Assembly: GCF_032854445.1 (NCBI RefSeq)
Contig: NC_088304.1
Span: 1,924,001 to 1,988,000 of the forward strand
Length of the DNA stretch: 64,000 bases
Direction: 5' to 3'
DNA from: Liolophura sinensis
Lineage: Eukaryota > Mollusca > Polyplacophora > Chitonida > Chitonidae
A program made the position numbers and the translations under genes. Numbering within the stretch: position 1 is the stretch's first letter; each line of letters opens with the position of its first letter. Positions 7,389-63,226 of the stretch are shown one piece after another. The notes under the pieces were generated by a model. The model searched no databases. It was not told where the DNA came from and saw only the letters and a program-made list of their open reading frames with translations.

Positions 7389-7399
7389 ACTGAACATAC

Positions 7400-9075: not shown

Positions 9076-9078
9076 TTT

Positions 9079-9361
9079 GGTGGATTCAAACTGGCTGCCC
9101 ATCACAGGTTTGGTATACTCACAGAGGATGCTCATCAGAGATTGAAATTGGCAGATTCAAACAGGCTGCCCACCACAGGTTTTGTATACTCACACAGGAT
9201 GCTCATCAGAGATTGAAATTGGTGGATTCAAACAGGCTGCCCATCACAGGTTTTGTATACTCACACAGGATGCTCATCAGAGATTGAAATTGGTGGATTC
9301 AAACAGGCTGCCCACCACAGGTTTTGTATACTCACACAGGATGCTCATCAGAGATTGAAAT
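9079..9361. repeat. 71-bp tandem repeat, 4 copies
   Basis: Units open GGTGGATTCAAACAGGCTGC and end CTCATCAGAGATTGAAATT. The last three copies are nearly identical; decayed fragments continue to about 9470. Confidence 0.9.
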
Positions 9362-17760: not shown

Positions 17761-18009
17761 CAATTTGCATAAAATTCAATGTCCTTTATCCTGGCACTGG
17801 CATATCAAATTACACTGCACACTCACGCCTCACTGAGAGACACAGGGTTGTAAATAACCAAAGCCTCAAACAATACGACGTCTTCATTTGCTGTCAACCT
17901 TCAACTATCCACTGCACCGATTATCTCTAAAATACCAGTGTCAGGTTTAGAGTACACTGTATGTATTATTTACCTCTTTTTGCAAACAATGAATTAAAAA
18001 CAACACTGA

Positions 18010-24079: not shown

Positions 24080-26235
24080 GGAACTTCATACCTTCCACTG
24101 TAGAGGGTGACAACCTCATACCTCTCCAATGTAGAGGGTGACAACCTCATACCTCTCCAATGTAGAGGGTGACAACCTCATACCACTCCAATGTAGAGAG
24201 TGATAACCTCATACCGCTCCAATGTAGAGGGTGATAACCTTATATCACTCCAATGTAGAGGGTGATAACCTCATACCACTCCAATGTAGAGAGTGATAAC
24301 CTCATACCACTCCAATGTAGAGGGTGACAACCTCATACCTCTCCAATGTAGAGGGTGACAACCTCATACCACTCCAATGTAGAGAGTGATAACCTCATAC
24401 CGCTCCAATGTAGAGGGTGATAACCTTATATCACTCCAATGTAGAGGGTGATAACGTCATACCACTCCAATGTAGAGAGTGATAAACTTACATCACTCCA
24501 ATGTAGAGGGTGATAACCTCATACCACTCAAATGTAGAGGGTGACAACCTCATACCTCTCCAATGTAGAGAGTGATAACCTCATACCACTCCAATGTAGA
24601 GGGTGATAAACTTACATCACTCCAATGTAGAGGGTGATAACCTCATACCACTCCAATGTAGAGGGTGACAACCTCATACCTCTCCAATGTAGAGAGTGAT
24701 AACCTCATACCACTCCAATGTAGAGGGTGATAAACTTACATCACTCCAATGTAGAGGGTGATAACCTCATACCACTCCAATGTAGAGAGTGATAAACTTA
24801 CATCACTCCAATGTAGAGAGTGATAACCTCATACCACTCCAATGTAGAGAGTGATAAACTTACATCACTCCAATGTAGAGGGTGATAACCTCATACCACT
24901 CCAGTGTAGAGGGTGACAACCTCATACCACTCCAATGTAGAGAGTGATAACCTTACATCACTCCAATGTAGAGAGTGATAACCTCACACCACTCCAATGT
25001 AGAGGGTGATAACCTCATACCACTCCAATGTAGAGGGTGATAACCTTATATCACTTTTATGTAGAGTGTGAAATCCTCATACCACTCTAATGAAGAGCGT
25101 GATAATCTCACACAGAGGGTGACAACCTCATACCACTCCAGTGTAGAGCATGATAATCTCACACACAGGGTGATAACCTCATAGGGTAGTGTAGAGCATG
25201 ATAATCTCATACACTCCAATGTAGAGAGTGATAACCTCATACCACTCCAATGTAGAGAGTGATAACCTTATATCACTCCAATGTAGAGGGTGATAACCTC
25301 ATACCACTCCAATGTAGAGAGTGATAACCTTACATCACTCCAATGTAGAGGGTGATAACCTTATATCACTCCAATGTAGAGGGTGATAACCTCATACCAC
25401 TCCAATGTAGAGAGTGATAACCTTACATCACTCCAATGTAGAGGGTGACAACCTCATACCACTCCAGTGTAGAGCATGATAATCTCACACACAGGGTGAT
25501 AACCTCATAGGGTAGTGTAGAGCATGATAATCTCATACACTCCAATGTAGAGGGTGATAACCTTATATCACTCCAATGTAGAGGGTGATAACCTCATACC
25601 ACTCCAATGTAGAGCGTGATAATCTCACACACAGGGTGACAACCTCATAGGGTAGTGTAGAGCATGATAATCTCATACACTTTAATGTAGAGAGTGATAA
25701 CCTCACACCACTCCCATGTAGAGGGTGATAACCTCATACCACTCCAATGTAGAGGGTGATAACCTCATACCTCTCCCATGTAGAGCATGATAATCTGACA
25801 GAGAGGGTGACAACCTCATACCACTCCAATGTAGAGCATGATAATCTCACACAGAGGGTGATAACCTCATAGGGTAGTGTACAGCATGATAATCTCATAC
25901 ACTTTAATGTAGAGTGATAACCTCATACCTCTCCAATGTAGAGGGTGATAACCTCATATCACTCCAATGTAGAGCATGATAATCTCACACAGAGGGTGAT
26001 AACCTCATAGGGTAGTGTACAGCATGATAATCTCATACACTCCAATGTAGAGTGATAACCTCACACCACTCCAATGTAGAGAGTGATAACCTCACACCAC
26101 TCCAATGTAGAGGGTGATAACCTCATATCACTCCAATGTAGAGTGTGATAATCTCACACAGAGGGTGACAACCTCATACCACTCCAGTGTGGAGCGTGAT
26201 AATCTCACACACAGGGTGATAACCTCATATCACTC
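24080..26235. repeat. 31-bp minisatellite, about 65-70 copies
   Basis: Unit is built on GTGATAACCTCATACCACTC plus CAATGTAGAGG. Variants with TTATATCAC, CTTACATCAC and a derived block (AGCATGATAATCTCACACAC, AGGGTAGTGTAGAGC) appear in the second half in repeating order, implying larger-scale duplication. Confidence 0.95.
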
Positions 26236-34500: not shown

Positions 34501-37500
34501 CAGGGGGTCCTGGAGTAGCTTCTAGTGTTGGTCAGATGACCCCTCTTCTAGCTCAACTATTGGACAGAACTGGAAAGCTTGAAGACCTGCACCTGATTCA
34601 CAGACTAGACAAGGAGACCACAGGTGTTATGATTCTGGCCAGGTACATGAAATCAGGTGGAATGACACGATGATAGGATTTTCAATGACATTCTTGAACA
34701 AGTTGATTCAAATTATTTCCTAATCCTCTCTATATGGCTCATAAGACCTACCAAAGAATTCAGATATTTGATGGTATTAAAGAAAGCTACAAAAAGTATT
34801 TTCAGGACTTTTTTGAATACATTTTCTAATGATGTTTCTGATGATGAATTTTCCTTCACGTTGAAGCAGAAGAAGCCAAGGTTTTCTGATATTTCCTGAC
34901 AATATCCTTTTTTTTTTTATTTTTGTGCATAGCTATTAATAGAAACACATCACAAGTCTAATATGGGTATTGAAGGTAAATTTTACCAGCAATTTATGAA
35001 TATTTGTCTCTGATTTGATCAGGCCAGTCAATTGCATCTAATTCTAATGCATCTTGTATTCCTCAAGGGAGTTAACACAGATTTTGTATTGGGACAAACA
35101 TGTCATCATGGAGTGAACTCCCCTTTTTCTGTTGGCCACAGTTCACAATTGATACATGTTAATGTTTTGCCTCACAACACGGTCCCCGCACCCTGGTCCT
35201 GATAATCTTTGTATCCTAAGACAACACCCGACAAATTCCTGACAGGCTGAAATTTTTCACATAATTGACAATTAGCTGACAGGTGTCAAACGGAGATGAA
35301 ACGGCACTTTTCACCACTTTTTTTGCATAGTTTGAATCCACCTCCACTTCCTAGAAGACACATAAACATGCACATAGAAGGAAACCTCCTCCTACAATAA
35401 TGCCGTACTAAATGATACCGCCTTACAAGCAGCCTTGAGGAGTGAAAGAAATTATATCTATTTATTAATTGTGGTGTGTAGCAAAATGTAGGGCGCAGTT
35501 CAATCATTTCACACGTTAATACACGTTTTTGTTTATAGAAGTGTATTTTGAGGACAATAATCTGTGGAGAGTGATAAAACCATACAATGTTTTGATGCTC
35601 TGTAGATCAGTAAAAAAGTCCTGGTCATTTATCTTTGTATTATGATTTTAAAGGGGCCAAGGGTGTTAGCATGCCAAGGAGACGTATTGACCCATGAGCA
35701 ACTCACCCTAGTGGTTGCTGTGAGTTCAAGTCCAGCTCTTGCTGGTTCCCTCTGCGGCCATACATGTAAAGATTTGTCAGCAACCAGGCAGTTGTCGTGG
35801 GTTTCCCTGCCTCTCCCACCAAAATGCTGGCTGCTGTTGTTTAAGTGAATTATTCTTGGGTACGACATCAAACACCAATCAAATATATAAATGAATAAAT
35901 ATAATTTTAAGGTCAATAAATTGTAGATGAAGTGGTGAAAATATTGCATAATGTTCCTGACTTGAGGCATTGAAAGAGATAAAGATTTAATCAGGCTGTG
36001 AGTCAGGTTGTGACCGAGTGATAAAGATTTTAATCTTTGACTCACTATGACAAGGGGTGATGGTTCAATCCCAGCTTTGGGCAATTGTTTTAATGAATTT
36101 CTGTATTTCACCTGTAGGTTAGTATTTTTTAAGTGAAATGTTTTGCATGATGCTAACTGATTCACCCATCTTGTAAGGCTACTGAAGATATTTTTGTGAA
36201 CTTTCATTAATTTCTTATCAAAAACGTACACAACGGCATCAAAAGTGTCATTGCAAAATCTTTTGCTTCTAAAAAGTGCATTCTTACATTCCAAACTTGA
36301 AGTGAAATGAAGTATATTTGTGGAATTATTGAGCTTTGTTCTTTATATACATTTTTTTTTATCTCAGAACCCCCCAGATGGCTTCTCAGTTGAGAGAACT
36401 GTTTCGAAAAAGAAAAGTCATCAAGAAGTATTGGCTAATTACTAAAGGAATCCCCAACCCTGCTGAAGGTAAGGACACACAGAGTTTTGCCCAATGAAGT
36501 TTGTCATCCTTTGTCATGCTCACTGTAGTTACATGGTGTACCTTCTCAATATGATATTCTGAGAACACTTTATTTGACCTGTTAGAAATTATGTAGATAA
36601 AGCAGTTAGTCATCTTATAGATAAATCAGTCAGTCATGCTGTAGGTAAATCATTTAATCATCTAGTAGATAAATCAGCTGGTCATCTTGTAGATAAATCA
36701 ACTGGTCATCTTGTAGATAAATCAGCTGGTCATCTTGTAGATAAATCAGTCGTCTTGTAGATAAATCAGTCATCTTGTAGATAAATCAGTCATCTTGTAG
36801 ATAAATCAGTTAGTCATCTTGTAGATAAATCAGTCGTCTTGTAGATAAATCAGCTGGTCATCTTGTAGATAAATCAGTTAGTCATCTTGTAGATAAATCA
36901 GTCGTCTTGTAGATAAATCAGCTGGTCATCTTGTAGATAAATCAGTCGTCTTGTAGATAAATCAGTCAGTCATCTTGTAGATAAATCAGTCAGTCATCTT
37001 GTAGATAAATCAGTCATCTTGTAGATAAATCAGTCAGTCATCTTGTAGTTAAATCAGTCGTCTTGTAGATAAATCAGTCAGTCATCTTGTAGATAAATCA
37101 GTCATCTTGTAGATAAATCAGTCAGTCATCTTGGAGATAAATCAGTCAGTCATCTTGTAGATAAATCAGTCATCTTGGAGATAAATCAGTCAGTCATCTT
37201 GGAGATAAATCAGTCATCTTGTAGATAAATCAGTCGTCTTGTAGATAAATCAGTCGTCTTGTAGATAAATCAGTCATCTTGTAGATAAATCAGTCGTCTT
37301 GTAGATAAATCAGTTAGTCATCTTGTAGATAAATCAGTTAGTCATCTTGTAGATAAATCAGTCGTCTTGTAGATAAATCAGTCAGTCATCTTGTAGATAA
37401 ATCAGTCGTCTTGTAGATAAATCAGTCATCTTGTAGATAAATCAGTTAGTCATCTTGTAGATAAATCAGTCGTCTTGTAGATAAATCAGTTAGTCATCTT

Positions 37501-40500
37501 GTAGATAAATCAGTCATCTTGTAGATAAATCAGTCAGTCATCTTGTAGATAAATCAGTCATCTTGTAGATAAATCAGTCGTCTTGTAGATAAATCAGTCA
37601 GTCATCTTGTAGATAAATCAGTCGTCTTGTAGATAAATCAGTCATCTTGTAGATAAATCAGTCATCTTGTAGATAAATCAGTCGTCTTGTAGATAAATCA
37701 GTTAGTCATCTTGTAGATAAATCAGTTAGTCATCTTGTAGATAAATCAGTCAGTCATCTTGTAGATAAATCAGTTAGTCATCTTGTAGATAAATCAGTCA
37801 TCTTGTAGATAAATCAGTCATCTTGTAGATAAATCAGTCATCTTGTAGATAAATCAGCTGGTCATCTTGTAGATAAATCAGTCAGTCATCTTGCATTTTG
37901 CCTGGTGTTTTGAGGTTAGTTTGGAAGGTGCAACTATATCTTGCTGGAAGTTTTTTAGTTTCTATCCCAAAAGTAATATTTTCAAACATTTAAAAACATT
38001 TCTAAAACTGGACTGTTTTGGAAACAATAGGTCAAATACTGTAGTACACAGATTTTGTACACAGAATTTAAATAATATCTTTGTAACAAACCTTTTGAGG
38101 GATTATCAGATGTTTTTTGTGGGTTTGGGTGAAGAAGGGTGGGTTGGGTGGGTGGCAGAGAGATGGCCTTATTGGCTCAGTTATGTAAAGCACCAAACAA
38201 TTCAGTTTCTGTCATTCATTAAAGTGAACATAAAGTCTGCCACTATTCATCGAAGAAATGATATAGGACACAATTATCACAGAAAAATGTGTAAAAAATT
38301 CTATAAAGTTTTGAAAGCTGAGAAGATGAAGTTCAGCACTGGGGAAATGGTACTGATGGACAATTCACTCCAAGTACCCATTTTGTAGAAGCCCCGACGA
38401 ACTTGGCCAATCACTACCGCTGAAAGCGTCACATGATAATTGGCTGTCACGTCAAAAACCTATTAGCTCCCGATTGTCGGTGTGGTTTTTTACAGTGGAT
38501 AGACCGATATCGATGCAAAAAATTGGATTTTGCAGTTAGTTTAAGTGTTGAACTGATGCATTTTGAACCAGACATTTATGATCAGGGAGCTGAGAACGGC
38601 TGCTCATGTCATAATGCGTACATGTTAGCCAGAATACTGCGGTAACCTGTCAGGGTGAGCTGACAAGAAAACCATCTCAGGAGAGTCATAACTGGACGAA
38701 AAATATTGTGACTTTGCATTATTTTTCCTTAGCAAAGTCAGATTTATTACGAAAATATCTTCCCAAAATCTGAGTGAAAGAGTGTGTTATCAATCAGAAG
38801 GACCCACAATGTTTGGTAAATTACCTGAAGTCGGTAGAGCCTGCTAGGCTAAAAACTTACACATAGGACTGCTAAAACACAACGGTTGTGTCCACGAACA
38901 TCGCTCTGACCGAGGGCCACACTAGAAGAAATATTGAACAGAGCTGATACTCTTTGGTTGCTTTGGTTGGGTATCAGTTATTCTTGTTAGTATTTTCTTA
39001 TTAACTTAAAGGACATTAATGGAATATGTACATAAGTTTACATTAACTTGAAATCACTTGCAAATATTAAAGCAGAGGAAGAAAAAAAGTTGAGTTGTTT
39101 GGAAATGATGAACATTGGTTTTGTTGACGTTGTAAATTACATGACTGTATGATAATTTTATAATTCTTGTGTTGTAGGCATCATAGATATCCCTATAGGA
39201 GAAAGCACAAGTCAGAAATTTTACAAGGTAATTTCCATAAGTTATGTTGTTCTTTCTGTCGTCGTAGGCAACACCAATTTGATTTGATTTTTGAGGGGAG
39301 AGCCAACAATAAAGTATTCAAAAACGTAGTAAATATAAAGTTGAAAATTCAGGTATTTATTTTATGGTCTTTCGTGGGAAGGTCTGTCAGCAACCTGCAG
39401 ATGGTCGTGGGTTTCACTCGGGCTCTGCCCAGTACTGGCTTCCATCGTGTAAGTGAAATATTTTTGAATATGGCGTAAAACACCAATCAAATCAATAAAT
39501 AAATAAAATTTATTTTGCAGTTGTCCAATCACATGTCCGTTGTTTGTTTCCTGCTGTTCAAGGTTTTTCGATCACATATATGTGTCTTGAACAGGAACAA
39601 CTACTGAGACAGTCCACATTTTCTACAAATTTGGAGCTTTTTCATTTTTATTTTTATTTCCATACCTTCCTCCGACGTTGAAAAAAGATTCAATTTGCCA
39701 ACGTTTGGCCAGAATTTCAGTTTGCACAGAATGCTGGGAAATTTACTAGAGGTTGGCCCTTATGTCTAAACTGCTGGATTGAAATAGTTAAACCCTCATG
39801 TCCACATCAAAACTTAGATTAGAATTCTAACTTTATTCAGCTTTATTGTAAACTGCCCTAATTGTTCTAAAATTTGGGACAGATATTAGCAGTGTTGAAA
39901 ACAGAATTTTACATTTCTTTACCAGCCTTTTGCAAAACTAAAGATATGCGTATATTGTTCATCAGATGGTCTAACCATGTGAGAAAAAAGAACCTCAGTA
40001 TTCCCTCGAAAATTACATATATATTGGCAAAAATGAGCAAACCAGGCACTCCAGATTTTAGAAGAAATAGCATATGTCAGATTTATGTCACTGACTTGTG
40101 GAAAACATTCTGTTTGCTTGCAGATGTGCCTGCGACCAGAACACAAGGAAGAGACGAAGTTAGTAACAAGAAAGAGCAGTTTGATTGGTCATGATGCGGT
40201 GACACAGTATCGAGTGTTAGATAGCCATCATCAGTGTGCCCTAGTCGAGTGCCAGCCATTCACCGGTGAGTGTAAAACACCTATCAAATGAATAAATCAA
40301 ACCCTAGTGCAACATTTATATAAAGGATGAAATATATGCCGCACAAAAGAATTCAACTTCCCAACTGCCTTTACTGACACAAGTGTGGCTTTATTTTTGA
40401 CATTATTTTCTATGTAATTAGCCAGCCAGTCTGTCAGCAACCTGCGAATGGTTGTTGGTTTCCTAGGCGCTACCCAGTTTCCTCCCACCCTAATGCTGAC

Positions 40501-48654: not shown

Positions 48655-49115
48655 ATGTTTGCATTGTTTTAATGTTATAGCGTGTTAAATGTGATGACTA
48701 CACAGCATGTTGAGTAATTCTAGACCAGTGACGTCTAATAAATTGCAATTAACGTCACTGCATTTTTATACCTAATTCGTGGTAAATGGGAAGGGCTGCC
48801 AGTAACCTGTGGATGGTCGTGGGTTTTCCCCGGGCTCTGCCCGGTTTCCTCCCACCATAATGATGGCCGCCGTCGTATAAGTGAAATATTCTTGAGTACG
48901 GCGTAAAACACCAATCAAATAAATAAATAAATACCTAATTCTTCTTAAGGCATGGTGCTAGGGGCATGTAAATTGCTACTATTTATGCATTACATGGACA
49001 GTTAGAATAAAATCCTACCTAAGGTAAATTGACAAGAGGCCATATTTCACTGGTTACATGTGACCATTTGCCAGCAATCACAATGTCGTTGCTCGGGTTT
49101 TACTTTCTATGCTGA
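48655..49115 (-). mobile_element. Unclassified dispersed element, copy A (host of a nested SINE)
   Basis: Reverse copy of an unnamed repeat also found at 50056-50345, 53290-53560 and 59277-59450. It runs from the ACAGCATGTTGAGTAATTCT region through TAATAAATTGCAATTAACGT, and CAAATGGTCACATGTAACCA read in reverse at about 49050-49080. The end is TTTTACTTTCTATGCTG. It is interrupted by the SINE at 48779-48930. No ORF is seen, so it is non-autonomous. Terminal inverted repeats were not found by eye. Confidence 0.6.
48779..48930 (+). mobile_element. 5'-truncated SINE nested in dispersed element, with 11-bp target-site duplication
   Basis: ATACCTAATTC occurs at 48768-48778 and again at 48931-48941, exactly flanking the insert. 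The insert starts GTGGTAAATGGGAAGGGCTG and ends in (AAAT)n. The paralogous copy B at about 50130-50165 shows the unoccupied site. This fixes the SINE's 3' end and shows it was recently active relative to the host element. Confidence 0.9.
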
Positions 49116-49327
49116 ACGTCTTTAATTATATTATGCCTATGCTCCGATCTGCAGTCACTTATCTCCGCACATTTAGAACTCTATTTTGTGACCATTTTTC
49201 CAGGCCGAGACATCGTTGGACTTCAGGTTGTTTTGGAAATGGATTTTGCGATTATCGACTTGGAACGCGCCATGGTTTTAGTGCTATACGACTGTCGAGC
49301 TTGACGGTCAGATTCAGTCCTGGAAAT

Positions 49328-49445
49328 GTATGTTAGATGTAATGCTAACACAGCATTTTGAGTAATTACATACCAATGAAGTTCATATTTTGTTATTGAC
49401 AACTCATATTCTAGCATGGTATACGATCTGAATACTGATTTCACT
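49328..49445 (-). mobile_element. Partial copy of the same dispersed element
   Basis: AACACAGCATTTTGAGTAAT resembles the start of copies A and B; similarity fades after about 49400. Confidence 0.4.
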
Positions 49446-49604
49446 CAGTCGCCTAAAGCATTCCTTGCGTCTTTCCAACATCAGTGAAAACTAATGACCG
49501 CTTTTGACAAGTCCTATTTGTTTTGTATTAGAACAAAACTGGTGTTAAGATTTCGGCCTTTTTACTCTCACTGACGTAGTCTTTTATATTGCATTTCTGC
49601 ATAA

Positions 49605-50048
49605 ACCAGGATTTTGCTGGTGCACCTAGCTGGTGGACCTAGCATGCCCGAGACCCAGGATTTTGCTGGTGGACCTAGCATCCCCGAGACCCAGGATTTT
49701 ACTGGTGGACCTAGCATCCCCGAGACCCAAGATTTTGCAGGTGGACCTAGCATCCCCGAGACCTAGGATTTTGCTGGTGGACTTAGCAATCTCGAGACCC
49801 AGGATTTTGCAGGTTGACCTAGCATCCCCGAGACCTAGGATTTTGCTGGTGGACCTAGCATCCCCGAGACCTAGGATTTTGCTGGTGGGCCTAGCATCCG
49901 CGAGACCTAGGATTTTGCTGGTGGGCCTAACATCCCCGAGATCAAGAATTTTGCTGGTGGATTTAGCATCCCCGTGACCTAGGATTTTGCAGGTTGACCT
50001 AGCATCCCCGAGACCTAGGATTTTGCTGGTGGACTTAGCCCCGAGACC
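49605..50048. repeat. 36-bp minisatellite, about 12 copies
   Basis: Unit is AGGATTTTGCTGGTGGACCT plus AGCATCCCCGAGACCC. As 36 is divisible by three, both strands have 12-residue periodic ORFs (DLASPRPRILLV on plus, GDARSTSKILGL on minus). There is no start context, splice signal or non-repeat domain. Confidence 0.94.
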
Positions 50049-50055
50049 TGGTTTC

Positions 50056-50345
50056 CTTTTCATGTTATTGTTCATTAAATATGATGACAACACAGCATTT
50101 TGAGCAATTCTAGACGAATAAATTGCATATACCATCACTGCATTTCTTATCCGCTAATTCTTCTTAAGACATGGCCCTACCGGTCATACAAGCTGTTATA
50201 CTACTTAAGCATTTACATGAACTGATGGAATAAAACCCTGACTGAACTGAAAAGAGGCAATATCCACTGATCCTGTATGACCATGTGCCAAATATCGCGC
50301 TGTTGTCGCAGCTCTTTTTACTCTATATGCTGCCGCATTCAAGTC
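50056..50345 (-). mobile_element. Unclassified dispersed element, copy B
   Basis: Aligns with copy A from AACACAGCATTTTGAGCAAT through GCTAATTCTTCTTAAGACAT and TGTATGACCATGTGCCAAAT to TTTACTCTATATGCTG. It has no SINE insert, so it serves as the empty-site reference. Confidence 0.6.
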
Positions 50346-50459
50346 GCATAAAAGCGTCATTGTAGAAATTTGAGGAAGGCTGACAGGTTATATTTTTGGA
50401 TGAGATACTTATTTCTTTAATACTTTTTCTTCATATATAAAATATTACGGCATGGAGAG

Positions 50460-51085
50460 TAAATTAGTACAGCGACGACAGTGTGATAGCTGTCAAATGG
50501 TCACACGTAACCGGTGATATACGACTACAGCACAGAGAGTAAAACCAAAGCAGCGACGACAGTGTGATGGGTGGCAAATGGTCACACGTAACCGGTGAAA
50601 TACGGCTACAGCACAGAGAGTAAAACCAGAGCAGCGACGAAAGTGTGATGGGTGGCAAATGGTCACACGTAACCGGTGATATACGACTACAGCACAGAGA
50701 GTAAAACCAGAGCAGGGACGAAAGTGTGATGTCTGGCAAATGGTCACACGTAACCGGTGAAGTACGTCTACAGTATAGAGAGTAACACCACAGCAGCGAC
50801 GACAGTGTGATAGCTGTCAAATGGTCACACGTAACCGGTGAAATATGGCTACAGGACAGAGAGTAAAACCAGAGCAGCGACGACAGTGTGATAGCTGTCA
50901 AATGGTCACACGTAACCAGTGAAATACGGCTACAGGACAGAGAGTAAAACCAGAGCAGCGACGACAGTGTGATAGCTGTCAAATGGTCACACGTAACCGG
51001 TGAAGTACGTCTACAGTATAGAGAGTAACACCACAGCAGCAACGACAGTGTGATAGCTGTCAAATGGTCATAAGTAACCGGTGAA
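50460..51085. repeat. 81-bp tandem array derived from the dispersed element
   Basis: About 7.5 units containing GAGAGTAAAACCAGAGCAGC, GACGACAGTGTGATAGCTGT, CAAATGGTCACACGTAACCG and GTGAAATACGGCTACAG. The same segment occurs once, reversed, in copies A (about 49035-49110) and B (about 50270-50335), and forward at 59285-59330. Since 81 is 27 codons, a 199-codon minus-strand frame is open (27-residue period); it is judged spurious. Confidence 0.92.
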
Positions 51086-51159
51086 ATACGACCTCTTGTT
51101 AAGTTACCTCAGCGGGGTTTGTACCGTAACTGTTCATTTATTTATTGGTTTTATATATA

Positions 51160-51412
51160 TATTTATTTATTTGATTGGTGTTTTACGCCGTACACAAGGA
51201 TATTTCACTTATACGACGGTGGCCAGCATTATGGTGGGTGGAAACCTGGCAGAGCCCGGGGGAAACCCACGACCATCCGCAGGTAGCTGACAGACCTTCC
51301 CACGTACGGCCCGAGAGGAAGTCAGCATGAGATGGACTTGAACTCACATTGGTGGGAGGCTTCTGGGTCATTACACTGCGTTACCGTGCTAACCATCTGA
51401 TCCACAGTGGGG
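51160..51412 (-). mobile_element. Nearly full-length SINE
   Basis: Reverse copy: TTTATTTATTTGATTGGTGT, TTTACGCCGTACACAAGGAT, GCCAGCATTATGGTGGGTGG, CAGCATGAGATGGACTTGAA, then head CTAACCATCTGATCCACAGT. Confidence 0.88.
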
Positions 51413-52598
51413 GCTGGGTTGGGGGGGAGGGGGAAGGGCTGTAACTGTTCATGTAAATGGTGTAGATGTTGGAAATTACACGTTCCTTATATAAAGCCAG
51501 TTAATTCCGTTCTGGATTCGCCCGGCTTAGAGCTTTCTTTATTGTTTACATTATGCCTGGTCTTACATTATAAGAGGAAATTTTGTATAATAATACGAAT
51601 ATGAACTCAAAGTTTGAAACCGGACTACGTTGTGGATTTCGTATGTCCCTCCGACACCGGAAACTGTTCATTATTCCTACTTTCAGGTAACTACCTTCTG
51701 TTATTGTTTTACCGGTTGACGACGTGAAATGTGAATTTGCATATTTCCCATAAGTATTATCACGATTATCCAAAATAAAGTGATCTTATCTAACTTTACA
51801 AGTGTGCGCAAATCTACCAATGCTTTTTTGAGATTTTCTCTTCGGTATTTAGTATTGTCTGTATAGACAGAACACTACGCGCCTACACATGCTGATGGGT
51901 ATATGTACTTTACAAAGATATGCTGACACGCTACAAAAGTTTTACCCCTGCTTCCTCAACAACACAGTGGAAAAAAGATGGCTTCAAAAACCAACTATCA
52001 ATGACACGGTTTTGACACTGATAGACATAAACTGTCAAACAGAACATCATTTACAAGTTCCATACCTCTTGCCTCAATGGGCACCTCTTTGATAGCACGT
52101 TATTGCTCACAGATGGGGCTTGTCCATAGTTGTCAGTCGGGGGTGTGCAGCACCACCGCGCGGACGAGAACACACGTTTCCATGTACAAGAAGAAAGTTC
52201 GCTGGCAACATGCCAACAGAGAAAGAGAAAAACTTGTGTGAAATCTCATTGGTAGATATCACGCCAGACCTCCTGGCCGATTCGGCTGGAATACCGGGGA
52301 TATATGTAACGTTAGTTTGAGGAGTTTTTCCGGTCCGTGCAGCCTGACGGTTGAGAGAGAGAGTGAGACAGAGAGTTGGGGGCTAAAATATCGCCTGCTC
52401 TAAACTCAATGTGTCGTCTGCTCCCCTTGGGTTCATTCTTACTTGTTTCGGAGTTCATTTCAGATTGGGAAAAGGAACACTAACAAGTTTGTCGTCTTGA
52501 TTTTTGTCTTCTTTAAAAAGCACTCTTTATTTCCACTGGAAGGAACCGCTGTGTAAGTTTTTACTCGGAGGAAGGTTTATCAAGAGAAAGTTGTCACA

Positions 52599-52800
52599 AT
52601 GGCGAGTCCTGGAGTGACACAGATGGAGGAGCAATTAGAGCAGGTGGAGGATGTGGTAGAAGACGTCTTCCCGGCCCTGGTGGGTACCGTGGTGATCTCA
52701 GCCTTGCTGCTGGTCATGTTTGTGGTAAGGGTGTACTGCCGATGGGCCGTGCCTTGTCCCAGCAACAATCGACTAGACGGTAAAACAGTGGTTATAACAG
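52599..52800 (+). CDS. Short-chain dehydrogenase, first exon (retinol-dehydrogenase-like)
   Basis: ATG at 52599 (context CACAATGG) opens 67 codons ending at donor AACAG|GTGAGT (52800/52801). After an acidic start (MEEQLEQVEDVVEDV), residues about 25-46 form a membrane helix (LVGTVVISALLLVMFVVRVY). A short basic linker follows, then NNRLDGKTVVITG. The last string is the first beta strand of an SDR Rossmann fold, cut just before the TGxxxGIG coenzyme loop, which is a usual intron site. An N-terminal anchor followed by LDGKTVVITG is typical of RDH11-14-like and related microsomal SDRs that reduce or oxidise retinoids or lipids with NADP(H). No exon with GANTGIG or YxxxK was found in 52.8-64 kb, so the intron exceeds 11 kb or the locus is broken. 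The exact SDR subfamily is unknown. Confidence 0.72.
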
Positions 52801-53289
52801 GTGAGTACGATCGGAAGCAAAAATGGACCTCCTTCACTTCCAGTTAGCAATAGTAACGCCTCAGATACCAACAAAAAATGTTCCTCAAGACTTTTTCTGA
52901 CAAAGTTGAATTGTTATGTGAAGGAAGGTATTCAGGTAATTTCGTACAAGTTTACAAAGTACAGGGAGATGGTCGGGGTTGCACCTGGTTAATTGTTGAC
53001 AATAGTTTTGGACAAAAAATTCGGACAATATTACTTATCAACACTAAATGCGCTGGTCGAATTCGAACTCCACATTCACTTTTGTAGGCCTCTGGTTCAG
53101 TTAAGTGTCGACCTGACTGAGTCTTATAACAGATCGTTGAACCTCCGAAGACTCGGTGTGATGTCATACAATTCCGAAAGCTACGTCATGTCGCGTGAGC
53201 CAACTCCCACATATCGCATGACGTTTACTTCATCTACATAATACTCAGTGCATGAGTGAATTGCTTCAGTCAAATTCTCCAACGTCACA

Positions 53290-53560
53290 GCTGGATAAAT
53301 GACCTTCAACGGTCACAGTTGGATAAATGCATCACACGACACAAAATGTTAGGTGGAGAATATTATTCTCCGAAATAAAATAGAATACCGGAGACAACTG
53401 CGTGCTAGGAAACGGTCTCGCGAAACAACAGTTAGGGTTTTATTCTAAATGTTAATAAAAATGCTTAATACTACATCAACTTACTCGCCCTCCTCCACAC
53501 ACACATTCCTCCCGCCACCAGCACCACGGCTTAACCAGAACATGATGCTCTTTACCACCC
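53290..53560 (+). mobile_element. Unclassified dispersed element, copy C (degenerate)
   Basis: TTAGGGTTTTATTCTAAATG, AAATGCTTAATACTACATCA, ACTTACTCGCC and CACCACGGCTTAACCAGAA follow copy D in the same order and spacing. The array-like 5' part is mostly lost. Confidence 0.5.
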
Positions 53561-54100
53561 AGCATAAAGAGTCAGACTCAGGCTGAAATGCTCATTGTTC
53601 TTCAACAATGCAAGTTTTTTTTACCAGTTTGCGCAGAAATCGTCATCGTCATTCTTGAAATGAGCAAAACACTATACTGCTGCATGGGCCCTTATTACTT
53701 TGAGCAGAAAAGGTGTCTCGTTAGGTAAGGGTACGAAGTCTCTCACAGAGCTGTTGGCGCATGGCGCATGTGTAAGGGACGTGTTGGTGATAGATAAGGA
53801 TCCACGGTTAATATCCTTGCCGTTATCTCCGTTTGCGCGTCGGGAATATGATGGACTTCTTATCAGCCGTTGAAATGCTCTGGCGTCTTTGCCGTGAATA
53901 TGATCTCTGACAACAACAGTGATACTGGTATTTGCTTAGGAGTACGGTTTTCACTTGTGCGTTTCTTGGTGGGTGAGATAGAAAAAGATGCGAACAAAAA
54001 AAGAGATATAATACCTTCATGGACTTCACTTATATAGTTGAATGAGCCTTCCTACTGCACAGCGTGTAAAGGAACTCAATCAGTAGCAGTTCTGCAATGA

Positions 54101-54368
54101 TTTATTGATTTATTTGATTGGTGTTACTCACGCCGTACTCAAGAATATTTCACTTATACGACGGCGGCCAGCATTATGGCGGGAGGAAACCGGGCAGAGC
54201 CCGGGGAAAATCCACGACCATCCGCAGGTTGCTGCCAGACCTTCCCACGTACGGCCAGAGAGGAAGCCAGCATGAGCTTGACTTGAACTCACAGCGACCG
54301 CATTGGTGAGAGGCTCCTGGGTCATTACGCTGCGCTACCGCGCTAACCAACTGAGCCAGGGAGGCCCG
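54101..54368 (-). mobile_element. Full-length SINE with 12-bp target-site duplication
   Basis: Flanked by GTTCTGCAATGA at 54089-54100 and 54369-54380. It runs from TTTATTGATTTATTTGATTG through GCCGTACTCAAGAATATTTC, CGGCGGCCAGCATTATGGCG and GCATGAGCTTGACTTGAACT to head ACCAACTGAGCCAGGGAGGC. The perfect duplication and high similarity to the 21923 copy indicate a young insertion. The spurious ORFs over this region are SINE translations. Confidence 0.94.
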
Positions 54369-54389
54369 GTTCTGCAATGAAGTTGTATT

Positions 54390-57300
54390 TGTCATGCGAT
54401 TATGATAAAAATTAACAGTGTTCTAATTTCTCAACCTTCGCGTATGAAAGAGCAACTTTCGGTACAATTTATGCACCTTTTTATTTTAATTTTGGAGACA
54501 AAGCTATATTGGTTGGGTTGACTAGTTTCAAGGGTTCACAAGAAGCATACTTTTTTCAGGTACACAGAACAGTGCCTTCAGAATATGCTTGAACAAACAC
54601 CTTGCAAACATGCAAAACGGTTGAAGAATTACAGTATAAAGCAAATATATCTGCGTGTGGATAACAGGGGAATCCATGGTTGTATACTTTTTAACTGAAA
54701 AGGAAAATTTAGCAAAATATGCTTTAGCCAACGATAACCAGGACATTACCAGTATCAGTGAGTTTTGAAGCCAGGCCAGACTCACAGGCAGAAATGGTTG
54801 CGATTCTCTAGGCCACTCACTTGTACAGGGATGGGAGTGGGTGATTGGTGGGGGGGAGGAAGGGGAGGTTTGTGGGGAGGGGATGATAAGGTAGAAAAAA
54901 GTAAGAAATTTGCGAGTAGAAAACGACATTTGTTTGGCATATTGCCCTAGTTTTCTGTTAATTGAGGAAATTATAATAGAAACAGTTCAGACAAACTGAT
55001 TGTCTGACATTAACTACCATGCTAATTTAACACACAGAGTCAGCAGAGGGAGGGAAACAGCTTGCCCTATTCCACATCTGGTTTATTTCTCCTCAGCAAA
55101 ACTGTGATCAGATCCAGCCGAAATTAGACTGTGCTACATTTCATTACTAAATTTCACGGCAAGAATGAATTTTAAAAGAGCCGATTTCATCATTAAATTT
55201 GACATTCCCTCATCACCATAAATAATAGTTTTCTCTGAATCTTACAGATACAAGCATTATTTTTATCCAACACATTGAAATACCAATGGTCCATCACACA
55301 GTAGATGTCGCAGTTTCTAGTTTCTGAAAACGTGGGGCATCAGAAACTATCCGTTTTTCATGCCAAGGAGAATCTGTCGGCAGTTTTACATGTTCACATT
55401 CGATGTTCCACGTATCTTGTTCATTGTAAAAGTTTTGTATCCGGGACCATACTGTTCAAACTATTGCACAGGGATATGTTTTAGCAGCTCTCTCTCTCTC
55501 TCTCTATTTTTATTACATTTTTAACAAAGGTTATTGTGCTTGGGAGCCTGTAGTACACCGGATTGATTGTTTAACAAAATTGCATTTCTCTTTACTGATG
55601 TGTATGTGGGAAATTCAGTTGGCGTTATTCAACTGTTTTGGCGTTAAACCCCAAGCACTCACCCACTCACTCAACTGTTTTGGCAACATTGATTTTTTTT
55701 TTCACTAGTGATTTTTTTGCGATTTGGATTTTGAACTTGGTCTTTCCGATCGACGTACGAGAACGTAATACTGCCTCTTCACGCCGTATATTCTGCATTG
55801 GCACTTTTGGTGTACTCGTTATTTGAATCTGCAAACTGCAATCTGTTTTACTTTCTTCTTCATACAGGAGAAAAAGTTTTCTTACAAGCGGCTGATGTTG
55901 TGTATGCACTATAGATTTAATTATCATCTGGGAAGGAGCGGGTACTCTACAATTTCGTTTTATAGTCTCCCATCTGGTCACCGTCAATGATGCGCTTATG
56001 GCAGACAAGGAGCCACATTTGGCAAGGTACCAGCAAGCAAGGTACAAGATAGATACGATAGTTGAGCCCAGTGATAACCGCGTGTGTTCATATTCTGGTG
56101 TTTTATCTTCGGATAGGCGAAATTTTCTTGCACCCATGTGCTGCATGGTGATGCAGCCTTCTGTATATAGCACAGAGAGACGGGTTCCAGATGCGCTGTT
56201 TGTGCAGGCCCCTCTCGACCCTGACAGTACCCTTGTGGGTGCGGGTTGCCAGGATGCCCTGCTTTATCCACATTCCTTTGTAGCGCGAGGTCTGCTATTG
56301 TTATCAGCCTCGGTGAAGTCCGCCTGTGATCGGCAGGAGGTCTTCGACACTTTCCGCAAGGCTGTGCGTTCTCCACAAAGTATGTTTTATATATAAAATA
56401 TACCTGTAGATGCTACCTGCAATTAACCTGAGGTCTGTATGGTATATCCACGTGAATGATAAGTACATCATCGCACATATGTGAATATAATAAATGAAAA
56501 GCCAACTGGGTATTAAGTATACACCTTTTCGCTATCAATCTTATCAACTGCAGGGCTAATTTCAAAGACAATGGTCACCTACCAATCTGAGCCGTCAGAA
56601 TAATGGGTATGCCAAATCTCACAAAAACGGCCAACAATTTGAACTTCATCCCAAATTTCTCATAATAAAACCATGCATCAAATTTCATTTCTATATAATG
56701 GGCCATTTTGAGAAAAAAAAATACATCAAACCGTCAAAGTACAAAACCAGGACAAAAACGGCCATAATTTTGTCGAATATGATCGAAATGCTGCAAACTC
56801 TAACTTGATCTGTTACTTGTCATGATGAAGCCTTACACCAATCCGGGAAACGAGCTTCTCTGCGGACATGGTCACTTGCGTTATGGCTGACACGTTCTAT
56901 ATAATATGTAATGTATATATTTACATATATATAAATACGCGCCTCGAGAACAAACTTGAAGACTATGCAAGGTCTATTGGTTTTCTTATTTACCTAGAAT
57001 ATTCCTTGCGTCTTTCCAACATCACTTGAAACTGCGGACTGCTTCTCTTTACATGGTTCTGTCCTAATTTCGTACTTTATATACATGTACTTTCTTACTT
57101 CTTTGGTCATTTCTGTCAAAGGTCGTTTTGGGAATTGGCCTTGCAATTATAAATTGACCTGGTACGTTCTTACTGCTTGGCGGCTGGCGTATGAATGTCT
57201 GTTTCGACGAATGAATTTGTATGGCGATATTCAGACTTTCGTGCTAATGTTCACGGGAACTTCATGTAAAAGACCATAGATCACTCACTCTGTGAAATGG

Positions 57301-58860
57301 AGCACACATATGTACGGCTGTGAACAACATTGTGGGAAACTCATCAAAGCCAAACCACATATATACATATATTTGGAACACTAAAACGTTTTGACGGTCT
57401 GCTTGGGCACCCATGTTCCAAGCTACACTTTTCACCGTGCCACAAACATTTCCCCATCAAGACCCCGAAGTACTGTACTGCAGCAATGCTGGTAACCCAC
57501 TCACCGGTTCTGTGATTTTTGCTCATGGCGATAGACCACAGAAGCCCAGTAAAACATAAAAAGTAATTGTTCTTCGACTGGATCTCTGTTTTTTATTTGT
57601 TTTTATTTTTTATTTTGCCCAAATATTAGCGTTAGCACTGTAGTTCCTAATAACATGGCTTTAGAATGATTTAGAAGAAAGAGTGTTTTCTCGTGTGCAG
57701 ACCTGGATGACGTCTCCTGTGTTTGGAGGCATAAATGCAGTACGATGCATGATAGGACCTGAGTAATCTGCAAGTCTGTAGGTTAAAAGGGATTTTCGTG
57801 CAGGTGGTAAGCCCAGTTGACACTATGCCACTAAAGAAAATGATACAAAAGGAGTTTGACAGACTGCCTTGAGTTTTCAGTTGTTAAAATATCACATTTG
57901 TGACATAATTCTCTAAACAATGAGGGTAAAAGGACCTATGGCAATCTAGTTAGAGACTGAGGTAAAGTACCGAGGTAGCATGTGTTCTTTGTTAAGCATA
58001 TAGCTTGCACGTTCGAGGCCTGGAAGGAAATGGCCCAGAGAAGCTGTGAGATAGCCTGGAATCTGTATCAGGAAAATGCATTTTCTCTGTCGTTGAAATG
58101 TTGGGGTTTTCAGCGAACATTCCTTACTGACGTGATATATCATAGGTCAAACCCTGCCAGAGATACTGTCAGTATAACTCATCAAAGCGGAAGACCCATT
58201 CGGGGAGCATCGTGTGTTTCCGCCGTAGCTCCGATTGGCCTCGGAACCAGACAAACAGCCTCTAGCGCTGCAGAAGGTCGAGTAAATGTTTTAGTCAGCT
58301 TCTTAGGAAGCTCCGATGTACAACCATGGGACTGTTTAGTCGACAATTTATGGTGTAGATATAAAGGCTTTTACACGGCGCAGCACCGACGCACATGAGT
58401 ACCAGAAGGATGCACTACTACAGCAAATCTGGAAAACTGTGTGTTTGTTCAAGGTGATAGTTCCCCCACAAAGCGTGTAATGATGGTCAGAAAATAGTCC
58501 CTTTGGGCAAGGGTTTCTTTAGGGCACTAAGGCCGCAGTCATATCAGTTAAAACCTATGAAATAGATAAATAAATGATGGAAGTGGCGACAGTTTAATTG
58601 ATGCAAATCTCCGTGAGCATGTCTGCTGATAAACAGCTTCTCAACCGTAAAAAGACTTCCCAATCAAACAGGAGCCAGACGCACTTTATTACGAACATTA
58701 CCACTATTTCATTGCTATCACAGAGAAGCAGTCATCAGGTTTACATGGTTGGTCATGTTTCTGACAGTATTCTGTGCAATTTCAAAATCAGTTTATGTGT
58801 GAATGTCTCCTCCTATGAAGCTGAACGTCAGAGACCTTGAACGTGATGTCTTTATTTGCC
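54390..58860. other. Probable SDR intron, mostly unassigned
   Basis: Contains a (TC)n run near 55490. A GC-richer block at 55960-56400 is open on both strands but unlike any family I recognise. A stretch at 57000-57240 shares a 24-base word with 49460-49483. No SDR exon seen. Confidence 0.4.
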
Positions 58861-58865
58861 AACAA

Positions 58866-59010
58866 TAATTTTTATTTATTTATTTGACTGGATTTTTACG
58901 CCGTACTCAAGAATATTTTAGTTATACGACGGCGGCCAGCTCTGATGGGAAGAAACCTGGCAGAGCCCAGGGGAAAACAATGATCATCCATAGACTGCCA
59001 ATAATCATGA
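58866..59010 (-). mobile_element. SINE, 5'-truncated
   Basis: TTTATTTATTTATTTGACTG, TTTTTACGCCGTACTCAAGA, ACGACGGCGGCCAGC, then it decays after CCATAGACTGCC. Confidence 0.85.
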
Positions 59011-59276
59011 TATATACTTGCACGTTAATTCAAGAAATTAAATTTTTAAGAGCTTATGAATATTGTACAAAGTTAAATGAACGCGTGTTATATAGGCCTA
59101 TATCTTGCAAGAAATGGACATTCTAACCTGAAACAGGATCGTCTCTATTGTTTAATGACAGAATCTCTCGATAGCAAGGGCATCATGTGCCCTCGAAAAT
59201 CCACACTTTCAAAAGTAAATTACATGATCAAACATTTGACTGGTAGATCCCAATGTTTAGAATATACTAAAAGACT

Positions 59277-59455
59277 TACAGAATAGAGAGTAAAGCAAGA
59301 GCAGCGACGATGGTGTGATAAATGGCAAATAGGGGTTTTATTCTGATGTTACAGGTAAATGCTATAACAACAGCAACTTACCTGGCCCCTATCACCATGG
59401 CTTAAGCAGAATGGGGTAAAAATTGCAGTGATGTTAACTGAAGTTTATTAGATGT
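59277..59455 (+). mobile_element. Unclassified dispersed element, copy D
   Basis: Contains in order a single 81-bp-array-like unit (AGAGAGTAAAGCAAGAGCAG, TGTGATAAATGGCAAAT), GGGGTTTTATTCTGATGTTA, ATGCTATAACAACAGCAACT, CACCATGGCTTAAGCAGAAT, and GCAGTGATGTTAACTGAAGT reading into TTATTAGATGTCAATGGTCC. It gives the uninterrupted order of the element's segments. Confidence 0.6.
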
Positions 59456-59459
59456 CAAT

Positions 59460-61940
59460 GGTCCAGAAAACATTTAATATACAAGGAAATACAGAAACTC
59501 TCCACATAATGATTTGTGTTGAGCAGTTCAAACTTTCTACTTTATGCTGGCACTGAGGCTTTTTGTGAATCTCTATGAATTCTGAACTGAACAAAATTTA
59601 GACTTCAAGACTTGAATCTCTACACACTAAAAACACTTAAGCCTACAGAACAGAGCAAGATGGCCACCAAAAGAGCACAGCCCTATAGTATTACCTACGT
59701 CTAGTACCGGAAGCTAGGTGTCTTGGTCAATTACACATATGGGCCTCCACCCTCGCAACTGATCGCGATATATTTAACTGACAGCAAAAATAAGCTCATT
59801 TTCGTGACGCAAGGTGACAATTTTTAATACCCCATAGTTGGAGGTATCAATAATATTGAACAATGACATAAATAAATACATAAAAGCCGGCAAGAGATAC
59901 CAAAGTAAGCAAGCCCTGAACTGCCACGTGTTGACGAACCTGTTTTATGTAAACAATTACGGGTTAATGTATCCACAAATAGCTAAATAAAACTAGGCTC
60001 AGGTTACGAAAGTGTACTACAACCTTTCGAATTTCGAAATCACTGCTTCTCCCACGCTAGACATATTTACAAAGGAAAAAGAAAAGACAACACATGTATG
60101 GTGTATATGTCTGTCACGTGTCAATTTTGTGTTTATTACAGACAGATGCTGCAAATTGAATTAAGTACAACTTACGTCATGGAGGTTTGAAATTAACATT
60201 ATCTCGTTCATATTGAGAAGGTGTCTCCTTTTAGCAGGCCGAATCCTATACTTACATATGGATGTAGTGCTGCCTCACTGGAACGTCATACCTTAACAAC
60301 CAGACCAGACAGCTCGCCTTGCAAACCCCGTGCAACGGTATAGAACACGAAACTGACCTTAATGTGGCGTATCGTCTTATGTCAGTGTTAAACACAGACA
60401 CATATCTTGATACATACTGAACAAGGTGTGTGGAACGCTGACACCCGACCATCTACTATACGAACGCAGCACTCGTGAAATTAATACTTTCTTTTCCTTA
60501 TAGCAGATTTTTCCCATTGTCGACATACTTGTAGTGCCGCCTTACTGTAACAGCATGCGAAAACAAGCTGTTTGACCAAGATGGCAACGATAACATCTTG
60601 TCGAATGATGGTAATGACGAGCTATACATAATGTCATCTCTCGGCCTGTATGTGTACTATTCTAACCTCCATGTGCAGTATAGCCATCAACTTTATATGA
60701 CTACTCATCAATTAAGTGATCGTTGCGAAAAAAACATTTTTTTATTTATGTATGTAGACTTAATAGTATTTAATTGATACTCAGGAATATTTTACTGGTA
60801 CGACGTCGGCCAAGTTTGTGAATGGAGAAAACCGAACATTGTGCGTGATGGAAGCGATTGCGCTTCGCCCATAGCCTCATATCTCATTGGTCAAGGGCAA
60901 TATTAGGCCACAATAAATCATTCATTAACTGACGAAGGGCAGATTAGCCTCGGCCACAACAAAGTGCCTTAAGTAGCAGGTTAAGCTAGGGAGCCACCCA
61001 TCCACCCGTTAACCCCCCTCCCCCTTTGGACATATCCCTCTCAACGGTTAATACAAGTACGTCTCAACCGCACGATGCGTTGTTCAAAGTATTTTAGGGC
61101 TCAAACTGCTGCCGGTGAAGCTTTCTAGCAGGCACCAGTAGATGGGACTGTAAGGCCTAGAAATGACCTAGGTGCCAATTTTCATCACCTCGTGCCGAAT
61201 TCGAGGTCGGAATGTCAATTAACACAGCTATCTTAAAATAGAAGATATCGCTGAAAGCTATATTCTGTTCTATTTGCATTCGCCTTTACGAGCCATTATA
61301 GATCCTGAATTAACTATGGACTTGGTATCAGGTTTCCAAAAGCTAATGGAAGTATTTTTCCATGCTAAATCTCTTCAGGTCCAAGCTGTGTAGTAAATGC
61401 TTCATTCCTCTGATATTGTCGTTTTCTACTTCATTTTACTGGTTAAAAGGTGAAAGTCAAAAGTAGGCATCGCGGCGTCATATATAAGAGAGGAGAACGT
61501 CAAAAACTTGCAGTTTAGCAAACAACCAAATATATTTTCACGTTATTCCATTCAAATAGTGACAAAGCATTCTTTGTAGATCTAATGAAATATCCCAGAG
61601 CCACTTTAAATCTTGAGATTACTTTCACGTTTAGCTCGCCGCAAAAGTCAATTGACCCGGCGTTTGTGTATTGTGATTTAATGTCATATCTGGTGTCTTC
61701 CATATGATGTTTCACTGATGCAGTACTATAAGTACTTCGACAACGTGAACTGCAAGAAGACGCTGTCGTCATATGCACCCCACCCACCACCTCTAACCTC
61801 CCATCAAAAAAAATATGTGGAAACCGAAAGTATCCAAACAGATGAAATATATCCCTGACTGACGTAAAATATTAACGATCTTAACCCTGACTGATGTATT
61901 TATCATATTCAGGGCAGTGTATATGTTATTGATTATCTGT
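59460..61940. other. Unassigned sequence, no gene recognised
   Basis: No domain-bearing frame or array, apart from the degenerate SINE near 60.8 kb. Confidence 0.4.
60745..60860 (-). mobile_element. Very degenerate SINE core
   Basis: ACTCAGGAATATTTTACTGG, TACGACGTCGGCCAAG and GGAGAAAACCGAAC resemble the reverse core only. Confidence 0.4.
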
Positions 61941-62073: not shown

Positions 62074-63226
62074 CGGTAATGGTGCAGTAAGTGATGTGAT
62101 AATGGTACAGTAGGTAATGTAGTAATGGTAGAGTAAGTGATGTGGTGATGATACAGTAGGTGATGAGATAATGGTACATAAGTGATGTGGTGGTGGTACA
62201 GTAAGAGATGCGGAAATGGTAGAGTAAGTGATGCGGTAATGGTACAGTAAGTAATGTGGTAATGGCACAGTAAGTGATGCCATAATGGTGCCGTAGGTCA
62301 TGTGGTGATGGTACAGTATGTGATGAGGTAATGATCAAAAAGTGATGTGGTAATGGTACACTAAGTGATGTGGTGATGGTGCCGTAAGTGATATGGTAAT
62401 GGTACACTAAGTGATGTGGTGATGGTACAGTAAGTGATGTGGTAATGGTGCAGTAAGTGATGTGGTAATGGTGCAGTAATTGATGTGGTGATGGTACAGT
62501 AAGTGATGTGGTAATGGTGCAGTAAGTGGTGTGGTAATGGTACAGTAAGTGATGTGATAATGGTACAGTAAGTGATGTGGTGATGGTACAGTAAGTGATG
62601 TGGTGATGGTGCCGTAAGTGATGTGGTAATGGTACAGTAAGTGATGTGGTGATGGTACAGTAAGTGATGTGGTGATGGTACAGTAAGTGATGTGATAATG
62701 GTACAGTAAGTGATGTGGTGATGGTACAGTAAGTGATGTGGTAATGGTGCAGTAAGTGATGTGGTAATGGTGCAGTAAGTGATGTGGTGATGGTACAGTA
62801 AGTGATGTGGTAATGGTGCAGTAAGTGATGTGGTAATGGTACAGTAAGTGATGTGGTAATGGTACAGTAAGTGATGTGGTGATGGTGCAGTAGATGATGT
62901 GATAATGGTATAGTAAGTGATGTGGTAATGGTGCAGTAAGTGATGTGGTAATGGTATAGTAAGTGATGTGGTGATGGTGCCGTAAGTGATGTGGTAATGG
63001 TACACTAAGTGATGTGGTGATGGTACAGTAAGTGATGTGGTAATGGTACAGTAGGTGATGTGATAATGGTATAGTAAGTGATGTGGTAATGGTGCAGTAA
63101 GTGATGTGGTAATGGTACAGTAAGTGGTGTGGTGATGGTACAGTAAGTGATGTGATAATGGTACAGTAAGTGATGTGGTAATGGTGCAGTAAGTAATGGT
63201 ACAATAAGTGATGTGGTAATGGTGAA
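62074..63226. repeat. 23-bp minisatellite, about 50 copies
   Basis: Unit is TAATGGTACAGTAAGTGATG plus TGG. Variation is mostly TAATGG/TGATGG and TACAG/TGCAG. The minus-strand frames of 80-265 codons (Ile/Thr/His/Tyr-rich) arise because no stop occurs in any of the three reverse frames of the unit. Confidence 0.96.

Follow-up and report, generated by a model that had tools for sequence, protein, structure and literature searches.

Satellite DNA born from transposable elements has already been documented for the HINE elements of oysters (PMC7492417), the PcH-sat satellite of a limpet (PMC11121367), and the Ogre elements of Lathyrus (PMC7004042). We analyzed a stretch of 64,000 nt (the window) from the chiton Liolophura sinensis, situated on a contig of 36.6 Mb in a genome that comprises 609 Mb in 632 contigs; the species name of the published assembly was later corrected to L. 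sinensis by its authors (PMC12441733). The window holds several copies of a dispersed repeat with a monomer of ~379 bp and ~40% GC, one of which contains an 81-bp tandem array. We consider it probable that this family is a short non-autonomous retroposon of L. sinensis that is retrotransposed from its 3' end and seeds minisatellites. It has the anatomy of a retroposon truncated at its 5' end and most resembles Penelope-like elements or retrozymes. The dispersal of the family, its constant and variable ends, its dimers, its tandem registers, and local homogenization in most of the arrays tested were observed directly.

Penelope-like elements, with their pseudo-long terminal repeats (pseudo-LTRs), are likewise truncated at the 5' end, and tandems of one complete and one truncated copy occur among them (PMC8969392). 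Unlike them, the chiton element has no open reading frame (ORF) longer than 81 aa in three dimer loci, yielded no hammerhead ribozyme in the loci searched, and shares no 3' end with the seven GIY-YIG loci examined. Metazoan retrozymes (mussel, coral, and axolotl) resemble it as low-GC tandem monomers of 150–450 bp (~350–390 bp in mussel) that occur as dimers upwards (PMC7229834), but their defining type I hammerhead was not detected in the chiton element. The Cg_HINE and pearl non-autonomous Helentrons of bivalves are also dispersed short elements with satellite-like arrays and no target duplications (PMC7492417). In HINEs, the array sits centrally between two end modules, whereas the chiton element is truncated at one end and carries five registers from two segments. 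The sequence-only reading of this locus had assumed a bivalve setting; the host is a chiton.

In plants, the 3' untranslated region (3' UTR) of Ogre elements in Lathyrus shows how a single retroelement region can give rise to numerous tandem families, of which some expand (PMC7004042). Ogre is an LTR retrotransposon whose repeats vary in sequence and monomer length, whereas a single monomer of 379 bp is the source of all the chiton registers. In the limpet Patella caerulea, PcH-sat is, like the chiton arrays, a mollusc satellite from a truncated non-autonomous retroelement (Nin-SINE; PMC11121367); it is one 179-bp pericentromeric satellite, whereas the chiton has several dispersed minisatellites. 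No paper on the 379-bp element was found in the literature searched, with Repbase outside that search. As far as searched, the combination of a Penelope-like anatomy lacking a long ORF or known ribozyme with five registers from one monomer is new.

Ends, dispersal, and dimers of the element

A profile hidden Markov model (HMM) was built from 14 near-full-length copies taken elsewhere in the genome and searched with nhmmer; in reversed control sequence totaling 336,811 bases, it gave no matches at E ≤ 0.01. HMM position 1 was placed at the constant end, and the inferred RNA sense is the opposite reading, from high to low HMM positions. In an alignment of 18 copies together with copy A of the window, most had a common sharp end, which reads AATATAATTAAAGACG in HMM orientation, and unrelated flanks past it. 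Extra tandem units stood at this end in three loci (L017, L023, and L030), and the end itself was duplicated in one copy (L003).

End statistics were obtained from 79 chains of HMM matches in the loci examined. Chains that came to within 40 bp of the edge of a locus were excluded, as were the duplicated L048 and the same-locus duplicates L001, L002, L037, L042, and L045. Copies split by an insertion or deletion, including copy A of the window, count as more than one chain. The chains started at HMM ≤5 in 45 cases, at 6–15 in 12, at 16–25 in six, and later in 16; 57 of the 79 thus start within HMM 15. The opposite end was scattered over HMM 54–374, and only three of the 79 reached ≥370. Read in the RNA sense, the copies keep the same 3' end, ...GTACGTCTTTAATTATATT, and are truncated to variable lengths at the 5' end, a pattern described for long interspersed nuclear elements (LINEs) and Penelope-like elements (PMC8969392).

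Target duplications were absent from 43 copies, for which the longest shared string was 4.26 observed and 4.30 in the control. Retroposons of the non-LTR type, made by target-primed reverse transcription, usually have such duplications but do not require them. As two inserts in the window are bracketed by clear duplications of 9 and 12 bp, target duplications are still detectable in copies like these. Terminal inverted repeats joining both ends, the mark of miniature inverted-repeat transposable elements and other elements of the terminal-inverted-repeat type, were found in none of three near-complete copies; one of these (L024) has an imperfect 17-nt inverted pair with an arm at its truncated end, which is not present in the other two (L035 and L027). 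As regards the tRNA-like head of tRNA-derived SINEs, Rfam gave no match in the element and no tRNA was found in the window, with no search for RNA polymerase III boxes made.

The 81-bp array used as a query gave 110 matches over many contigs, taken from 40 scored of 3,761 first-look candidates, and the terminal 19-mer had 332 exact matches in the genome, compared with 0 for its control. The copies are therefore more than a local segmental duplication. First-look candidate counts for the family queries, which are rough, ranged from 1,609 to 9,171. The exact 19-mer was present in 9 of 70 sampled ends, which together with its 332 genome matches gives ~2,600 3' ends, ends inside dimers included; this is probably an underestimate because the sampled copies are well preserved. 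The family probably numbers thousands of copies. Element densities in flanks (two in 58 kb, nine in 66 kb, none in 29 kb, and five in 40 kb) were too noisy to be used for copy number.

Copies that cross the monomer boundary usually run into another monomer. Junctions of monomers and of tandem units were counted in 85 sources, allowing up to three substitutions per junction; most of these sources came from searches in which the dimer, the tail, or one of the 81-, 48-, and 36-bp arrays served as the query, and counts in them should therefore not be read as genome frequencies. The monomer junction, in which GGAATACA is followed by ATATAATT, was present in 17 of the 85, and a 23-mer spanning it had 42 exact genome matches against 0 for the control. 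Two copies are exceptions at the boundary: L024 stops there, and L035 ends ~20 bases past it. Dimers were seen mostly as one full and one truncated monomer, the truncated one being the outer unit, and the longest copy (L050) consists of two monomers plus ~20 bp. Among the 40 places scored for a query of 713 bp, none had 379-bp units adjoining one another in a run.

Some dimers lie in settings of their own. On contig C11 (7.62–7.73 Mb), five dimer matches occur in ~100 kb, several with near-equal scores, possibly as part of a larger repeated unit. At L046, 44-bp and 42-bp arrays of related sequence flank an element dimer (103–978 and 2410–2659). At L047 and L048, ~1.37 Mb apart on contig C13, a dimer lies beside a 53-bp minisatellite of ~30 and ~49 copies, respectively. 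This minisatellite, which lies upstream, was considered as a sign of a longer element and rejected, since the outer flanks of the two loci are identical and the pair is thus a segmental duplication; it provides a natural test of array length change. As a duplicate of L047, L048 was dropped from the end, target-duplication, subfamily, and junction counts and from the sampled 3' ends.

Tandem registers and growth of the arrays

Five registers (81, 48, 35, 36, and 39 bp) were identified, which bears out, more strongly than had been claimed, the proposal that the family repeatedly seeds minisatellites. The 81-bp register (unit HMM 16–96) was found in 17 of the 85 sources with 137 junctions, the 48-bp register (HMM ~13–60) in 11 with 174 junctions, and the 35-bp register (HMM ~318–354) in seven with 127 junctions. 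Among the same sources, the 36-bp register was confined to the window (11 junctions) and the 39-bp register to L082 (33 junctions). They come from two parts of the element, the 48- and 81-bp units beside the 3' end and the 35-, 36-, and 39-bp units near the other end of the monomer. The sequence-only reading had viewed the 81-bp array as a satellite being born at this locus; the same junction in 17 sources, most of which were picked for family resemblance, shows that this register is not peculiar to the window. One locus (L010) has an 80-bp period throughout.

Among 20 loci fetched by single-unit tail or distal similarity (L017–L036), three have a tandem 3'-terminal segment (L017, L023, and L030). 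Short multi-unit forms were also seen, with one junction in L030 and two in L050 at the edge of its locus, and registers shared across loci suggest that such forms travel with the element. The 5' truncation points of four 48-bp loci differ (159, 182, 252, and 266), which suggests separate insertions of array-bearing copies. The tails of eight array-bearing copies were no closer to one another than to those of 65 others (difference of −0.036, reached by 978 of 1000 shuffles). These tails do not form a subfamily, and the comparison, although made with only eight copies, speaks against a single array lineage and favors either a source whose number of units varied or duplications that formed repeatedly at the same points. 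That new registers do form is shown by those of 36 and 39 bp.

Expansion of the 81-bp arrays was mostly local. For 144 units in 15 arrays, the mean identity was 0.934 within and 0.859 between arrays, a difference reached by none of 300 permutations, and the nearest unit lay in the same array for 126 of the 144. In 12 of the 15 arrays, two to six positions were fixed (≥80% of units) for a base differing from the single-unit consensus. The 35-bp group (13 runs from nine sources, with the 36- and 39-bp units included) had identities of 0.885 within and 0.817 between runs, and the nearest neighbor lay in the same run for 84 of 147 units. Because units are closer within than between arrays in the 81- and 35-bp groups, most of these arrays grew or were homogenized after insertion; the 48-bp arrays are excepted, as 15 of the 24 arrays listed in that comparison were 81-bp arrays and its within and between figures were not used.

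Proposed mechanism and alternative origins

To account for these patterns, we infer reverse transcription, the kind of enzyme involved, and the way in which the first duplications formed. The RNA sense would be the strand ending in ...GTACGTCTTTAATTATATT, and reverse transcription at a nick in the genome would copy the element starting from this 3' end. Copying that halts at scattered points would leave 5' truncations without target duplication, and copying past the monomer start would run into a second monomer to give dimers of a 5'-truncated unit followed by a full one, as in Penelope-like elements. Such run-on implies that the template would be a multimer or a circle, or that the enzyme would jump from end to end. 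Duplications of short internal segments (48 and 81 bp; 35, 36, and 39 bp) would arise in source copies or in the course of copying; transported to new loci, they would grow longer there and be homogenized into minisatellites. The 48-, 81-, and 379-bp repeats all re-enter ≤16 bases from the constant end, which suggests template jumping back to the RNA 3' end. An extension of this mechanism, which we consider unlikely, would have a Penelope- or retrozyme-like element on circular or multimeric RNA without a known ribozyme, in which the reverse transcriptase, on jumping back to the 3' end of its template at a fixed short distance (~48 or 81 nt), would write the tandem duplications that turn into minisatellites; satellite birth would then be driven by the transposition enzyme and not by later recombination alone.

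Several results weigh against retrotransposition from the 3' end followed by local growth of the arrays. Of the RVT_1 matches, 150 were listed, and 14 reverse transcriptase loci, picked for matched stretches of ~645–756 nt, which we take to be of the non-LTR type, were examined as a sample for the 3' end of the element; none had a matching end in the right orientation. Two loci considered as LINE partners (L064 and L068) do contain copies and were rejected because these lie in the opposite orientation to the reverse transcriptase. Of ten matches to GIY-YIG, the domain that accompanies the reverse transcriptase in Penelope-like elements, seven were sampled, and none of these loci held an element copy. 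Rfam searches of 18 loci (E ≤ 1) and of two dimers (E ≤ 10) detected no hammerhead, and a motif scan detected none in the consensus and a loose match in one scanned copy (L011). Because neither a hammerhead nor a partner enzyme was found, the element is likened to Penelope-like elements and retrozymes but not classed with them. An alignment of the terminal 115 nt at the 3' end, which took in 42 of 49 listed references, gave no predicted pairs of a conserved RNA fold. The 16 of 79 chains that start beyond HMM 25 are explained in part by inserted repeats and internal deletions that split copies, and they indicate that the constant end is not universal. Bases fixed in the 81-bp arrays also occur in 0–7 of 29 single units, so that not all of them are private, and three of the 15 arrays (L006, L009, and that of the window) have no fixed private change. 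A rolling-circle DNA element with a fixed start would also yield dimers of one full and one partial unit with no target duplication.

This last point is shared with a non-autonomous Helentron or Helitron of the HINE type with tandem repeats, replicated by a rolling circle as in the Pacific oyster. Such an element would explain the lack of target duplications, the arrays inside the element, and the head-to-tail copies, and Cg_HINE elements carry arrays likewise and Helitrons can repeat in tandem (PMC7492417). Nine matches to Helitron Rep proteins were also present in this genome. Helitrons begin and end as TC...CTRR, however, and the aligned ends of the chiton copies do not; moreover, one end is truncated in nearly all copies (3 of 79 reach it), whereas elements of the HINE type have both terminal modules intact, with subterminal inverted repeats and a palindrome at the 3' end. 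No inverted-repeat pair common to the three near-complete copies joins both ends, and a HINE origin is unlikely. The sequence-only reading had pointed to inverted-repeat or Helitron ends, and a 5'-truncated retroposon fits the ends better.

The copies could instead be truncated 3' ends of an ordinary LINE (CR1- or L2-like) whose 3' UTR holds two monomers. The constant 3' end and the 5' truncation agree with this, and the LINE mechanism permits target duplications to be missing (PMC2881922). We nevertheless judge it quite unlikely, because among ten long copies compared no common sequence adjoins the 5' end except in the segmentally duplicated L047/L048, the second monomer also ends at scattered points with L050 starting a third, and the constant end is missing from the 14 reverse transcriptase loci. 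Ordinary satellite DNA spread by recombination, without a mobile element, would produce tandem arrays, head-to-tail 379-bp units, and local homogenization, and some copies do lie in segmental duplications (L047/L048). However, the aligned copies have one fixed end and unrelated flanks, the matches lie on many different large contigs, and no adjoining 379-bp run was seen among the 40 places scored for the 713-bp query; this origin is very improbable.

Copies in the window and their significance

Self-BLAST of the window, as the sequence-only reading had proposed, recovered copies A, B, and D, the 81-bp array, and weaker pieces. Together with the HMM, it gave six family members (A, a fragment, B, the array-bearing copy, C, and D) with E values of ~1e-9 to 1e-59. 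Copy A, on the plus strand in the inferred RNA sense, consists of a distal part (48658..48778; HMM 318 to 196; nhmmer E 7.4e-31) and a proximal part with the constant 3' end, aligned with that of other copies (48932..49131; HMM 205 to 1; E 1.5e-55). They are separated by a repeat on the plus strand (48779..48932) with self-BLAST matches at many other places in the window, and a 9-bp target duplication, ACCTAATTC, brackets this insert (48770–48778 and 48933–48941). A degenerate fragment on the plus strand (49321..49397; HMM 303 to 226; E 3.2e-9) had been overlooked.

Copy B (49595..50332, plus strand; HMM 373 to 18) was supported by E 4.3e-59 for 50015–50332 and by a terminal match at 49595–49655 (E 1.6e-5). 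The 36-bp array (49629..50039, plus strand; 11.4 copies), which the sequence-only reading had placed between A and B, is internal to B and was amplified from a segment of it (HMM ~326–362), as found with Tandem Repeats Finder (TRF) and the HMM (unit matches at E 2e-5 to 0.006 each). On the minus strand, the array-bearing copy (50439..51138; HMM 9 to 142 by nhmmer) contains the 81-bp array (50470..51090; 7.7 copies with 91% matches by TRF), each unit of which corresponds to HMM 16–96 by nhmmer, confirming the amplification of an internal segment. It is interrupted on the same strand by a repeat found with self-BLAST (~51138..51440) and bracketed by a 12-bp target duplication, GTAACTGTTCAT (51126–51137 and 51441–51452), and it probably resumes beyond this insert (51440..51489, minus strand; HMM 129–178), with an nhmmer E of only 0.0082. 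Both inserted repeats are SINE-like, that is, presumably related to short interspersed nuclear elements; a tRNA search found no tRNA gene in the window.

Four copies of one element had been claimed. A, B, and D belong to the same dispersed family, whereas copy C (53428..53541, minus strand; HMM 113–199; E 1.4e-9) is weaker and shorter than stated. Copy D (59263..59468, minus strand) matches HMM 2–69 and 120–258 (E 6.2e-11 and 1.8e-25), with the first part of the 81-bp unit present and HMM 70–119 missing. The segment CAAATGGTCACACGTAACCG, said to occur once each in A, B, and D, gave local scores of 17 in A (near-intact), 9 in B (diverged), and 7 in D, compared with a shuffled maximum of 11 and mean of 7.0; it is absent from D because HMM 70–119 was lost there. 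The 81-bp unit does match A and B, although B, whose score is below the shuffled maximum, is convincing only through its whole-copy HMM match.

Elsewhere in the window, a weak HMM match (7218–7263; HMM 25–73; E 0.0037) was not taken as a copy. Other minisatellites (58, 45, 31, 24/44, and 23 bp) occupy 4402–6440, 18005–21738, 24082–26156, 36592–37893, 62075–63198, and further places; these five gave no element-HMM match at E ≤ 0.001. The flanks of many examined loci are likewise rich in minisatellites. Weak opposite-strand matches at HMM 240–287 in L086, L088, and L089 (E 0.03–0.93) were judged to be chance. Between repeats, the plus strand at 52600–52800 has an open frame that, by eye, we take to resemble the start of a short-chain dehydrogenase (retinol dehydrogenase-like).

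Unclassified repeats were reported to make up 14% of the Liolophura genome (PMC11068029), and the element may explain part of them. Within one assembly, some copies have one, two, or a few units and others have tens of units in a common register, beside registers met once, and the steps of seeding, spreading, and expansion in the origin of a satellite could be separated and timed in this family. The origin of satellite DNA is an old question, and the chiton element gives a series of examples of its possible beginnings.

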